IMG/VR virus record: IMGVR_UViG_3300025087_000622
Coordinates: 1 to 32,266 of that record
Direction: 5' to 3' (one strand)
Length of the DNA: 32,266 nt
Source of the DNA: a virus
Shown here one piece after another: positions 20,559 to 24,865 of the stretch (positions within the stretch are counted from its first letter, which is position 1; each line of letters opens with the position of its first letter). The notes under the pieces were generated by a model that did no database searches, was not told where the DNA came from, and saw only the letters and a program-made list of their open reading frames with translations. The translations under genes and the position numbers were made by a program.

Positions 20559-20889
20559 TGGTTGCGGGAACCCGAAAGCGGTGCGAGTGATAAATTACGG
20601 CGGGGTTGAAGTATGCGAGAAGTGCGGAGGTTTTAGGGCAACCGGCGGAACTAGCAGGGACGGGATAATGTCTCGCCAGAGCCTACGAGTACGCACCGAC
20701 AGCCACAAGAACGAAGTTGACACCCTGCCCCCGCACAGATTTGATAAGGCAAGTAGAGAGTGGGTAGCCAACGAGGATTTTGTCAAGAACAACCCCGAAA
20801 CTGTGCATAACTTTCTCGACGATGACGAATTAAGTAAAGCAGGATTCAGTAAATTGGCGAAAGGCAAGAATGGAAACAAGAAAAATTGA
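20548..20889 (+). CDS. zinc-ribbon protein
   Basis: ATG 20548, inside the previous gene, is preferred to 20524 because AAAGG lies upstream and the protein then begins MKCDGCGN. Residues 3-6 (CDGC) and 21-24 (CEKC) form a zinc ribbon; the remaining 90 residues are polar with a DDDELSKAGFSKL helix near the end. It overlaps the ParB-like gene by 20 nt. Function unknown. Confidence 0.6.
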   Translation: MKCDGCGNPKAVRVINYGGVEVCEKCGGFRATGGTSRDGIMSRQSLRVRTDSHKNEVDTLPPHRFDKASREWVANEDFVKNNPETVHNFLDDDELSKAGFSKLAKGKNGNKKN

Positions 20890-21445
20890 GGAGTTAAAGT
20901 TCGCAGACTACAACCCCCGCAAGATAGGCAAAGAGGAGTTTCAGAAACTAGTCAACAGCGTCAAAGAGTTCGGAATGGTAGAACCGATAGTTATCAACAA
21001 GGACAACACTATCATAGGCGGACATCAAAGAGTACGAGCGGCACAGGAATTAAAGTATAAAGAGTTGCCGGTCGTTATTGTGGAGCTAGACAAGGTCAAG
21101 GAAAAGCAGTTAAACATAGCCCTGAACAAAATACAGGGCGAATGGGATCACGAAAAACTGTCGGAGATATTGCACTCCTTTGACGACATAGAGATCACCG
21201 GTTTTAGCGACACAGAGTTAAGTTTCGTAGAGGATATAGCAGGATTCGGAAGCGGCGGGCAACTCGACGAGGAACAGTACAAAGATATGCAGGGGGAAAT
21301 GTCAGACCAAAGAATGAAATTGACTTTTTATTTCAGCGATGTAAAAGAATACGAGGAGTTGCATAAGTTCTTCGGTGGAAAATCAGATCACGATAAAAAG
21401 ATACTATGGGAGTGCATAAATGCTTTTAAGCAAAGACAAGTATAA
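20870..21445 (+). CDS. ParB-like nuclease/sulfiredoxin-fold protein
   Basis: This 191-aa protein has the ParB N-terminal domain at residues 3-90: 'YNPRKI', 'LVNSVKEFGMVEPIVIN', 'IIGGHQRVRAAQELKYKELPVVIV' with the GGHQR motif, and a later helix 'KEKQLNIALNKIQGEWDHEKLSEIL'. In phages this module often precedes an N6-adenine methyltransferase; here the methyltransferase domain is absent and the C-terminal 60 residues are acidic and uncharacterised. It may be a small DNA-binding or nuclease protein near the packaging genes. Whether it cuts DNA is unknown. Confidence 0.82.
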   Translation: METRKIEELKFADYNPRKIGKEEFQKLVNSVKEFGMVEPIVINKDNTIIGGHQRVRAAQELKYKELPVVIVELDKVKEKQLNIALNKIQGEWDHEKLSEILHSFDDIEITGFSDTELSFVEDIAGFGSGGQLDEEQYKDMQGEMSDQRMKLTFYFSDVKEYEELHKFFGGKSDHDKKILWECINAFKQRQV

Positions 21446-21696: not shown

Positions 21697-22172
21697 AGAA
21701 GAAGTACAACAAGAAAATAGCAGAGGAGTTTTGCAAACACATAGCCAGCGGCAACACGGTGCTTGATGTTTGTGCTATGACGGGACTTTCCCACGAAAGT
21801 TATTATAGTTGGCAGAGACCAGAGATCCCCGACAAAAAAAATGAGGGGAAAGTCAAAAATCCTCAATACCACCCTGAATTTGTTGATATGGTTAAAAAAG
21901 CAGAGGCGCAGTTCAAACTAACTCACCTCTCAATTATCAATAGAGCCGCCGCCGGAACGAAAGGAATAAGGAAAACAACGAAGCCCAACGGAGACGTCGT
22001 AGAGGAGGGGTATTGGATTGAACGCCCCATTTGGTACGCTTCCGCTTGGGTACTTGAGCGAAAGTTCAAAAAAGAATACGCAATACGCAGGGAAATCGGG
22101 GGAGATGACGGCAAGCCGATAGAAGTATTGCATATTTATAAACCAGAGAAAAAACCAGAAGGGGCGGAATGA
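21693..22172 (+). CDS. terS: terminase small subunit
   Basis: This 159-aa protein overlaps the preceding gene by ATGA. Residues 7-35 (IAEEFCKHIASGNTVLDVCAMTGLSHESYYSW) are the helix-turn-helix typical of TerS, followed by a central helix (VKKAEAQFKLTHLSIINRAAAG), and 'WIERPIWYASAWVLERKFKKEY', the conserved AWWLERR..-type segment. TerS binds packaging sites and guides TerL. Directly upstream of TerL, as expected. Confidence 0.85.
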   Translation: MKKKYNKKIAEEFCKHIASGNTVLDVCAMTGLSHESYYSWQRPEIPDKKNEGKVKNPQYHPEFVDMVKKAEAQFKLTHLSIINRAAAGTKGIRKTTKPNGDVVEEGYWIERPIWYASAWVLERKFKKEYAIRREIGGDDGKPIEVLHIYKPEKKPEGAE

Positions 22173-22220
22173 ATATTAAACCGAACATCCACAAAAGATG
22201 GATTAGGGGAGGTGATGCCA

Positions 22221-24349
22221 ATGCCCATACAGAATAGTTGGATACCACATCCTGGACCGCAAGAAGAAGCTCTCAGCCGAAGTGAGTACGAGATTTTGTA
22301 TGGGGGCTGATTGGTGCTCGGGGTGGCGGCAAGACTGAAGCTGGTTTAGTTTGGGAGACAGACCACGTTGACAAGCCACACTATAGGGGTTTGGTAATCA
22401 GAAAAAACGCTGATGACCTTTCGGACTGGAGAGACAGAGCTAGGAGATTTTATACCGGCTTGGGGGCAGAGTTTGTTGGACACCCTGGCGTGATACGCTT
22501 TCCTAGCGGGGCTATAATCAGAATGGGGCACCTCAAAGACGATCAAGCGTACACAAAGTATCAAGGACACGAATATCAAAGAATATTGATCGAAGAGTTG
22601 ACGCAGATACCAGATGAAAAACGATATTTACAGTTGATAGGCTCTTGCCGGTCGGTTCACCAAGACATCAAACCCCAGATATTTACAACAACAAATCCAG
22701 GTGGCGTGGGACACGCTTGGGTGAAAAAAAGATGGAACATAGCAACTCAAAAGGATTGGGGAAAGGCATTTTTAGCAGACGATACGGGCAGGTACCGGAT
22801 ATTTATACCGGCTAAGATTGACGACAACCCTACGCTGATGAAGAACGACCCAGGTTATGTTAAAACGCTTGAGGGCTACAAAAAAGTTGATAACGAGTTG
22901 TATATGGCTTGGCGGTGGGGTTCTTGGGATGTGTTTAGCGGGCAGGTGTTCAGGGAGTTCAATTACGCAAGGCACGTTACCGACAATTTCGAGTTCCACC
23001 TTGACCAATGCAAAAAGATCATAGCTTTCGACTGGGGTTATAACGCACCAGGTTGTGCTGTTTGGCTTGCGGTAGCACCGGAAAATAGGTTTGGCACAAA
23101 TCACATATATATCTATCGAGAAATATATCAAAACGAAAAGACGCCGGAAGAGTGGGGAAAGCAGATCGGGTTGTTCACAAGGATTGAGGAGACAGACTTT
23201 ATGGTACTCCCACACGACTGCTTTAGCAGAGATAGGAGCGGAAAGCGAACAATCGCCGATGTCTTCAAAAAAATGATCTCTACCCGCATTGTGGCCGGAA
23301 ACACACTGGCAAAAGGGGCGAGGTTAAATCGCTTGGCGGCTATGCACGACTTGTTGGCTGATGCGGGGGACGGAGTACCGTACTTGCGGATACACCCGAA
23401 AAACGAGAATCTGATCAGGACATTGCCGGAGCTGGTTTATGATGACGTTAAAATAGAAGACGTTGACAGCAGTTCAGAGGATCACTGTTTATCTGGAGAC
23501 ACTCTAGTACTAACGAATAAGGGTTGGATTAAGATTGAGGAATTACCGTTTGCAAAGATCACTGGTTATGATACAATAGTTATGGAATTAATAACTATTG
23601 ACGGAGACAGATTGCAATGTACGCCAAACCACAAAATATTAACACCAAAGGGATGGAAACAAGCAAGAGAATTAAAAGCGGGGGAATCGGTGTTGTCATT
23701 ATCTCTGAAACAATACAAGAATTTAGAGGAATTAGATATTATAAATGCGGAAAATATTATAGCAGACAAACAAAAAAAGCATCTGGTTCAAAAAGATTGC
23801 ACAGAGTCATTTGGGAATTTGTTAACGGCAAAATACCAAAAACCCATAACCTCCACCACAAAAACTGGGACAGATCAGACAACAGAATCTCAAACCTTGA
23901 ACTCACTGAAAAAGCAGAGCATCTTGCTTTTCATTCCTCTAACCCAACTGAAAAACAAAGAGAAGCTAGACGAAAAAATGCACTCGGAGCTTGTAGAAAG
24001 GGTAATCTCAAGATGTCTAAAAAACAAAGAAGTAAAGCGTCTAAAATCGGTTGGTTACGCAGGAAAAAGAGAGAAAGTTTATGATATCGGGATTAATCAT
24101 AGTGCTCACAGTTTTATTGTAAACGGTGGATTTGTGGTTCACAATTGTTACGATGCCGCCTCGCTGGGACTTATGGCTATATCGGTGAAGTACAAACTAT
24201 CAGCCGGTGCGATCAAGGGTCGCGTGCTAAAAGAAACTGAAGCCAGAATTAAGACAGACCCCAAGACCGGCGAAAGTTACACATACGATTTTGCAAAAGA
24301 AATAAAAGAGAAAATGAAAAGAAAAAGTAAAGATTGGAGGTACATTTGA
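22221..24349 (+). CDS. terL: terminase large subunit, frame-broken, intein-containing
   Basis: The N-terminus begins at ATG 22221 after GGAGG (MPIQNSWIPHPGPQEEAL..EILYGG) and is stopped by TGA at 22308-22310. The rest continues in another frame as GARGGGKTEAGLVW (Walker A), ILIEEL (Walker B, residues counted after the break), TTTNPGG (coupling), 'IIAFDWGYNAPG', 'PHDCFSRDRSGKRT' (nuclease motifs) and SEDH|CYDAASLG. Skipping 8 nt between GGC (22305) and GGT (22313) would give the usual YGGARGGGKT; a -1 slip would instead insert LIG. The 220-aa intein (23486-24145) is inserted between the His and Cys at nuclease motif III. TerL is the ATPase/nuclease motor. Expression of full protein therefore needs recoding or the break is an assembly or real mutation. 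Confidence 0.85.
22302..22315 (+). other. frame break at TerL Walker A
   Basis: TAT GGG GGC is followed by TGA in the N-terminal frame, while the Walker A codons GGT GCT CGG GGT GGC GGC AAG ACT begin at 22313 in a different frame. The GGGGG run and the matched Gly codons GGC/GGT 8 nt apart are the visible features. Options are a homopolymer error, an 8-nt insertion, -1 frameshifting, or a short translational hop. Confidence 0.7.
23486..24145 (+). other. intein in TerL (220 aa)
   Basis: The insertion starts with Cys1 (CLSGDTLVLTNKGWIKIEEL, block A), has block B 'LQCTPNHKILTPKGWKQARELKAGESV' with the TxxH signature, and ends with 'VYDIGINHSAHSFIVNGG' (block F) and VVHN (block G: penultimate His, terminal Asn), followed by Cys+1 of the extein. 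All residues needed for class 1 splicing are present. The 118-residue stretch between block B and block F has no recognisable endonuclease in the splicing frame; an HNH gene is read there in another frame. It interrupts a highly conserved active-site motif, the favoured site for inteins. Confidence 0.92.
23617..24084 (+). CDS. HNH homing endonuclease nested out-of-frame in intein
   Basis: A 155-aa ORF lies wholly inside the intein but in a different reading frame. Residues about 35-105 match the HNH_3-type homing nuclease: 'RGIRYYKCGKYYSRQTKKASG.KRLHRVIWEFVNGKIPKTHNLHHKNWDRSDNRISNLELTEKAEHLAFH', with the LHH and N..N motifs; the basic C-terminus (MSKKQRSKASKIGWLRRKKRESL) could bind DNA. ATG 23617 has GGAG at 23603-23606, about 10 nt upstream, so it can be translated by itself. 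The conserved block lies between the intein's splicing blocks, so both frames are used. This would make a homing enzyme separate from the splicing protein. A ribosomal -1 slip near the GGGGG at 23681 could alternatively join them. Confidence 0.82.
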   Translation: MYAKPQNINTKGMETSKRIKSGGIGVVIISETIQEFRGIRYYKCGKYYSRQTKKASGSKRLHRVIWEFVNGKIPKTHNLHHKNWDRSDNRISNLELTEKAEHLAFHSSNPTEKQREARRKNALGACRKGNLKMSKKQRSKASKIGWLRRKKRESL

Positions 24350-24456
24350 TCATTGTTTACAAATGCACAACTTGCAAAAGGATCGTAAACTCGTTGTCAG
24401 GGATAAAGAAGTGCGATATCTGTGGCAAGTTTTTGGTGAAGATCACGAGGATATAA
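24346..24456 (+). CDS. 36-aa zinc-ribbon protein, TTG start
   Basis: TTG 24346 overlaps the TerL stop (TTGA) and follows GGAGG at 24336-24340 with good spacing. The 36-residue product has CTTC (residues 7-10) and CDIC (23-26), a small zinc ribbon, and a basic remainder. It is too short to be found by a length cut. Function unknown; it is followed by two back-to-back hairpins without a U tract. Confidence 0.55.
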   Translation: MIIVYKCTTCKRIVNSLSGIKKCDICGKFLVKITRI

Positions 24457-24461
24457 AAAAG

Positions 24462-24510
24462 CACGCAAAATACGTTGCGTGGCTAACTCTGTCTTAACCT
24501 AGACAGTTAG
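24462..24510 (+). other. two adjacent hairpins downstream of TerL
   Basis: CACGCAA (24462) pairs with TTGCGTG (24475-24481) around a 6-nt loop; CTAA plus CTGTCT (24483-24494) pairs with AGACAG plus TTAG (to 24510) with a 2-nt bulge. There is no U tract, so this is not a classic terminator. It may be an RNA processing or stability element between the terminase and portal operons. Confidence 0.45.
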
Positions 24511-24551
24511 GTAAAACTAGTTATTCAGAATATAACATATTGCAAGGCGGG

Positions 24552-24578
24552 TTGTCAAGTGGCAGTTTATGATATAAT
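24552..24578 (+). promoter_or_regulatory. extended -10 promoter, near-leaderless gene
   Basis: TTGTCA (24552) and TATAAT (24573-24578), 15 bp apart, with TGA before the -10. The next ATG (24593) is 14 nt after the -10, so the RNA has an 8-nt or shorter leader and no Shine-Dalgarno site. Confidence 0.6.
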
Positions 24579-24592
24579 AGAGATGGAACATT

Positions 24593-24865
24593 ATGCTACC
24601 GAGCAGACTACAATCAAATGATGAGGCGATCATTACGGTTTGGCTGGACGAGAACGAAAACCACGCAAAAATACTGAAGCAATTTAGGTGCTGTGTTTGT
24701 GGTAGAATAGTATTTGAGTACTATGGTTCAGTCAGAATGATATTGCCAAGCGGACATACCATTAGCAAACCAAAGGTGGTACAATGTAAGGGTAGAATAT
24801 CCGGCAACAACCGGTGCGGTCAATGGGAAAATGTCGCTTGTAACATTAAATATTATATAGTTTGA
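24593..24865 (+). CDS. zinc-ribbon protein upstream of portal
   Basis: The 90-aa product has CCVC (residues 28-31) and two further Cys (CKGRISGNNRCG near residues 63-74) likely to complete a zinc site, and beta-strand-rich ends. The start has no ribosome site but lies close to a promoter start. Its stop is 16 nt before the portal ATG. It may be a head-assembly accessory; that is inference only. Confidence 0.55.
   Translation: MLPSRLQSNDEAIITVWLDENENHAKILKQFRCCVCGRIVFEYYGSVRMILPSGHTISKPKVVQCKGRISGNNRCGQWENVACNIKYYIV

Follow-up and report, generated by a model that had tools for sequence, protein, structure and literature searches.

A TerL intein with an HNH endonuclease overprinted out of frame: a probable mobile intein with a separately initiated homing enzyme

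In canonical inteins the endonuclease domain sits between splicing blocks B and F (PMC6801210); in mobile representatives such as PI-SceI the enzyme is encoded in frame and forms part of the excised intein. An HNH endonuclease lying out of frame within a phage gene has been described as the ShiLan domain, which was found in a methylase and is not an intein (PMC11855218, 2025). We here analyzed a virus record of IMG/VR (IMGVR_UViG_3300025087_000622), the whole 32,266-base stretch being called the window, in which the TerL open reading frame (ORF; 22391-24349, matching phrog_979 and Terminase_6N) is interrupted by an intein that in turn is overlapped by an HNH endonuclease ORF in the -1 frame. 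Very probably this locus is a mobile intein whose homing endonuclease is overprinted and initiated separately. No description of an endonuclease lying out of frame within an intein was found in the literature searched; a preprint of 2025 by the same group as ShiLan, whose title contains the words 'Non-Canonical Architecture', lay outside this comparison and may overlap with it. Inteins and homing endonucleases are both known, and it is their overprinted coupling that is new or very recent.

The locus shares some traits with each of the closest described systems and departs from all of them. As in canonical mobile inteins (e.g. PI-SceI; PMC6801210), its endonuclease DNA occupies the standard site between blocks B and F, but there the enzyme is in frame with the splicing blocks, whereas the window HNH is in the -1 frame and its product would be a separate protein. 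With ShiLan it has in common an HNH read out of frame in a phage host gene whose own frame stays open, a patchy distribution and a proposed internal start. ShiLan, however, is devoid of intein splicing motifs and presumably remains part of its methylase, whereas the window insert is a true intein with blocks A, B, F and G and a Hint fold, i.e. an insert having a self-splicing domain; furthermore, ShiLan starts with GTG and lacks a Shine–Dalgarno (SD) sequence, whereas SD sites are enriched at the intein-overprinted HNHs studied here. Free-standing HNH genes beside terL, as in phages SN1, PAE1, vB_EauM-23 and Shemara, similarly place a homologous enzyme next to its presumed target gene, but with no intein and no overlap, and the frame equivalent to that of the intein then contains 1-14 stops. 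Dassa and co-workers reportedly described, in 2009, fractured genes in which split inteins have a free-standing endonuclease between their halves. In phage CL2 and several contigs, a member of the same HNH family indeed separates the two halves of a split TerL intein, but fractured genes consist of separate ORFs needing trans-splicing, whereas both halves in the window belong to one open ORF overlapped by the HNH. Mycobacteriophage TerL inteins (sites a-g; PMC5050341) likewise reside in TerL hosts, and one of them, Chandler TerL6-f, carries an out-of-frame Endonuclease VII; unlike these, the window intein is inserted at a nuclease-domain site and not in the ATPase domain. In the study of Kelley et al. 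(2016, PMC5050341) activity is tied to identifiable homing endonuclease (HEN) domains in TerL1-b and -c, the intein of Chandler gp6 (TerL6-f) is reported to splice readily, and the parts treating that intein make no mention of an endonuclease.

A first-pass annotation of the window, made from the letters alone, had placed splicing blocks A, B, F and G in the TerL frame, and its coordinates proved exact, with PF14890, TIGR01445 and TIGR01443 all matching within 23486-24145. The intein begins at Cys1, has TPNH as block B and ends in ...VVHN followed by Cys+1; all residues of a class-1 type intein (Cys1, block B TxxH, C-terminal Asn and Cys+1) are present. Its AlphaFold model matched 35 PDB chains at E<=0.001 using Foldseek, all of them inteins, with both ends forming a confident Hint fold (as judged by predicted local distance difference test, pLDDT) and with the predicted disorder coinciding with the HNH overlap. 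Also borne out was the proposal that an HNH domain lies between the blocks in another frame, with its own ATG and GGAG site (PF13392, E=6.7e-16); the ATG is at 23617 and the GGAG at 23603-23606. The HNH core of the window is intact, having H80, H81, N89, N93 and H102 that are invariant among 62 HNH homologues, and its AlphaFold model reached a pLDDT >90 over most of that core. The sole PDB sequence match was I-HmuI (E=0.0024), which was also the top fold match, although a weak one (E=0.018). Across the HNH, the splicing frame was found, as first described, to have neither a recognisable domain nor a stop; the motif-like stretch TSTTKTGTDQTTESQTLN seen there in the intein frame is merely an alternate reading of HNH codons. 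When HNH codons were permuted synonymously, the intein frame stayed open in 1.3% of permutations, with 2.9 stops expected. A chance overlap was rejected on the basis of the Pfam scores, this shuffle test and the relatives described below. The features are listed in Table 1.

Table 1. Features of the TerL locus in the window (positions are those of the window) and cultured-phage counterparts with Endonuclease VII.
Feature	Coordinates or locus	Strand	Evidence and remarks
TerL N-extein (ATPase domain and part of nuclease domain)	22286..23485	+	phrog_979 E=9.9e-34, Terminase_6N E=8.8e-8; frame open from 22286, true start unsure
TerL intein, 220 amino acids, TerL frame, Cys1...Asn220, Cys+1	23486..24145	+	PF14890 E=1.2e-13, TIGR01445 E=1.1e-6, TIGR01443 E=0.0019; AlphaFold model resembles solved inteins
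Intein N-terminal splicing region, blocks A and B; TPNH at 23621-23632	23486..23710	+	pLDDT 93-98 (residues 1-70); TxxH in 67/67 relatives
Intein C-terminal splicing region, blocks F and G, ...VYDIGINHSAHSFIVNGGFVVHN	24050..24145	+	TIGR01443; pLDDT 81-97 (residues 181-220)
Overlap as read in the intein frame, linker residues 100-149, predicted disordered	23783..23932	+	pLDDT <50
TerL C-extein and stop, starting with Cys+1 (CYDAASLGLMAI...)	24146..24349	+	Sequence
HNH endonuclease ORF, 155 amino acids, -1 frame relative to TerL/intein, wholly within intein	23617..24084	+	PF13392 (HNH_3) E=6.7e-16, phrog_15471 E=2.2e-17
HNH_3 core (LHRVIWEF...LHH...N..N)	23794..23925	+	ORF residues 60-103
GGAG, candidate SD sequence of HNH ORF, 10 nucleotides before ATG 23617	23603..23606	+	Sequence; SD enriched in relatives
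TerL of cultured actinobacteriophages with unannotated Endonuclease VII	L159 Phlyer, L160 AlanGrant, L161 Sedona, L163 Chandler		

According to the mechanism that we propose, the TerL frame would be translated as TerL-N, intein and TerL-C, with the class-1 type Hint intein excising itself. The DNA between the splicing halves would also be translated in the frame one base back, starting internally with a ribosome-binding site of its own, to give a separate HNH endonuclease, and in the intein frame the overlap would serve as a flexible linker only. The HNH would then cut intein-less TerL alleles, whereupon the whole unit, splicing halves and hidden enzyme together, may be copied in by recombination.

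The layout had initially been regarded as an isolated oddity, but proved to be widespread. A tblastn search seeded with the window HNH was run against annotated phages, and the HNHs of these phages, followed by two tighter HNH alignments (A3 and A4), were used against IMG/VR; a mixed alignment with six members yielded no usable motif. Loci were classified using profiles for the HNH and for the N- and C-parts of the intein and clustered at 95% identity, leaving four copies of the window locus out of the counts; contigs L002 and L003 are 100% identical to the window over 5 kb and perhaps not independent samples. Three TerL genes were matched in annotated phages (Tetrasphaera phage TJE1, Rhodobacteraceae phage LS06-2018-MD07 and Acinetobacter phage Highwayman), all three having the HNH in the -1 frame within an uninterrupted TerL-intein ORF, and the IMG/VR search added about 110 loci. 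At 96 loci in 72 clusters a single open intein ORF enclosed an HNH in the -1 frame, most of these loci showing both intein halves and a few the N half only, the C half being missed by the profile or beyond the contig end. Close relatives with an in-frame HNH, for which the first-pass annotation had advised to look as counter-evidence, were found at none of the about 110 loci, and its view that this architecture differs from that of in-frame endonucleases is supported by the same layout in the 72 clusters. A single contiguous locus used the other frame (L110, 537-3713, +1 frame), on a 143-kb contig where the host protein was recognised by its intein alone. At about ten loci TerL was divided over more than one ORF, the HNH separating the two halves of a split intein, and the remaining loci were HNH genes lacking intein blocks, several of them free-standing and adjoining terL. 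TerL PHROG families each matched up to 55/60 outer ORFs, these being counts per family rather than a tally per member, and an A3 scan of bacterial and archaeal genome contigs gave no relative.

The HNH frame is under purifying selection, while openness of the intein frame and its splicing residues are maintained. Cys1, TxxH and the last Asn were kept in 67/67 relatives, with the +1 residue being Cys in 62 and Ser in 5. No intein-frame stop occurred within the overlap in any of the 72 clusters, as compared with 2.45 expected per locus upon synonymous permutation of the HNH gene, the geometric mean probability of an open intein frame being 0.026. In 12 non-overlapping pairs of loci, change per site at intein positions 1, 2 and 3 was 0.26, 0.21 and 0.49 before the overlap and 0.32, 0.25 and 0.56 after it, whereas within the overlap it was 0.22, 0.37 and 0.26, HNH position 3 thereby becoming the freest; this switch of the variable position was highly significant (chi-square p ~ 5e-50). 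The free position changed less in the overlap (about 0.37-0.39) than in the extein (0.56), which is what dual coding predicts. Read from the same overlap DNA, amino acid identity was 66% in the HNH frame versus 51% in the intein frame, agreeing with the earlier expectation that the HNH frame would be the more conserved, and HNH amino acid identity in homologue pairs was 53-81% at a nucleotide identity of 61-85%.

A second, unrelated endonuclease family was found in the same type of arrangement. One TerL on contig L118 (260-3832) holds two inteins, of which the first type hides the HNH and the other an Endonuclease VII (PF02945, E=1.1e-20), each enzyme being read in the -1 frame; on L046 (584-3736) each of two inteins in one TerL has an out-of-frame HNH_3, again in the -1 frame. 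A search with the Endonuclease VII matched TerL genes of Mycobacterium and Gordonia phages, at a TerL site differing from that of the HNH, and the enzyme lies in the -1 frame within an open TerL intein frame in Phlyer, Chandler, AlanGrant, Sedona and the IMG/VR contig L153. Close Endonuclease VII relatives are held by 36 GenBank records, all beneath features labelled only as terminase or intein, with the frame examined in four of these phages and in Nordenberg. This sister group, the only one for which intein-less alleles are known here, also gave indications of mobility. In Gordonia phage Bibwit terL occurs as an intein-less allele, from which precisely the 265 codons making up the Sedona intein are absent while the flanking sequences are 97-98.5% identical, and Nordenberg and Sedona are about 97% identical in their exteins and 65% identical in their inteins. 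Judged from these sequences, this is the pattern that homing and replacement would leave. No empty-site pair was found for the window's own TerL allele, relatives of which (L144-L150) matched the ATPase part only and were excluded as empty-site evidence.

With regards to expression of the HNH, a start codon near the domain was found in 71/72 loci, being ATG in 62 of them, and an SD-like site at proper distance preceded 32/71 HNH starts (45%) as compared with 360/4,238 background starts (8.5%; p=8e-16). An alternative to internal initiation would be that ribosomes shift by -1 out of the TerL/intein frame and so produce a fusion of TerL-N, intein-N and HNH. The relative frame of -1 in all contiguous cases but one is the usual direction of bacterial programmed frameshifting, and 13/72 loci have an in-register slippery heptamer upstream or near the start. 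Most loci have no in-register slippery site, however, including the window, in which no such heptamer was found upstream of the HNH, and the strong enrichment of SD-bearing start codons also argues against frameshifting. Moreover, at 25 loci a stop in the HNH frame is located <=15 nucleotides upstream of the domain, which leaves almost no overlap for shifting and therefore essentially only internal initiation. The bias for the -1 frame can be explained with no need for programmed frameshifting, because composition makes that frame far easier to open, with about 2.4 stops expected in the frame used versus 20 in the alternative frame of the HNH gene. We therefore find frameshifting improbable. 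A group I intron with an HNH ORF, removed at the RNA level and leaving an open intein frame as incidental, would be another origin of the layout, as HNH enzymes are often encoded by group I introns of phages. With no Rfam intron family found in 22100-24700 of the window, splicing residues invariant in 67/67 relatives, an intein fold predicted and an intein frame that is never closed, the probability of this explanation is negligible.

Alternatively, the HNH may be a relic in decay and the element may have become an immobile mini-intein, a view that the missing zinc-ribbon tail of the window HNH, its nearest homologue being just ~41% identical, and the clearly degraded version in Brochothrix phage BL3 would suggest. 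The window ORF is nonetheless intact with all HNH core residues present, homologue pairs show position-3 periodicity together with the retained amino acid identity given above, and recent mobility is indicated by the empty sites and swapped alleles of the Endonuclease VII sister group; we accordingly hold decay to be possible but rather unlikely. Sequencing or assembly indels having displaced an ordinary in-frame HNH, the other source of doubt raised by the first-pass annotation, might be suspected because the same TerL appears to break frame where a G run occurs near 22302. Such compensating indels cannot account for an identical frame relation in 72 clusters including the cultured phages TJE1 and Highwayman, nor for the Endonuclease VII cases Chandler, Phlyer and Sedona, and no in-frame relative was found; on the evidence of the relatives this explanation was rejected as highly implausible. 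Several points nevertheless weigh against a mobile intein with a separately initiated enzyme, especially regarding the window copy. The window HNH ends short of the C-terminal zinc-ribbon cysteines found in >=90% of the 62 homologues and therefore may be weakened. Its frame is open for 96 nucleotides upstream of the domain, so that for this copy a -1 frameshift origin is possible, its SD spacing, at 10, is rather long, and about half of all HNH starts have no recognisable SD. The apparent frame break at the Walker A motif implies that the TerL host gene of the window may be damaged or the contig may carry an indel error. Finally, translation of the HNH as a separate protein, cleavage at the TerL site and activity of the window copy are predictions from sequence.

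Some further observations were made at the window and related loci. At 22215-22310 of the window the start of TerL (MPMPIQNSWIPHPGPQEEALSRSEYEILYGG) is in another frame than the remaining TerL, as is also the case in L003, and the frame break at ~22300-22310, having a five-G run near 22302 beside the Walker A motif, may reflect a sequencing error, a mutation or a frameshift. A ParB-like protein (20870-21445, METRKIEELKFADYNPRKIG...), recognised by eye, is encoded immediately upstream of the probable small terminase gene, an order shared with several terminase modules. Split TerL genes with an HNH of the same family between intein halves were found in L030 (1670-2684, Lactobacillus phage CL2), L007 (Brochothrix phage BL3), L099, L102, L106, L120, L125, L131, L134 and L136, representing a 'fractured gene' variant of the same element, with the HNH degraded in BL3. 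In L057 (108-2381) the HNH overprint is found at another TerL site, the intein preceding the Terminase_6N match in the ATPase half. In Pectobacterium phage Amona (L015, 1267-2840) an intein N-half is overlapped by a LAGLIDADG endonuclease ORF in another frame, with a helicase ORF after it; this may be one more out-of-frame or split layout, involving a third endonuclease family. That the overprinting arose only once was not supported by a quick HNH tree, itself weak and with losses also counted among the changes: the -1 class required 14 label changes, of which well-supported branches force at least 4.

The surveys were seeded from two endonuclease families, so their counts are not a frequency among all inteins. 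We think it fairly likely that overprinted out-of-frame homing endonucleases constitute a major, previously unrecognised route to phage intein mobility, with at least two unrelated families (HNH_3 and Endonuclease VII) independently overprinting at several TerL sites, sometimes two per gene, and with many inteins classed as endonuclease-free actually being mobile. The sorting of inteins into mobile and endonuclease-free looks at their own frame only and therefore misses this class entirely; many 'enzyme-free' inteins may be mobile elements with a hidden enzyme. The second frame of a splicing element would here house a parasite's parasite, an arrangement that uncouples the timing and amount of the enzyme from production of the host protein. 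It also offers a clean natural system for dual-frame selection, with Chandler TerL6-f, for which splicing has already been demonstrated, as a cultured test case.
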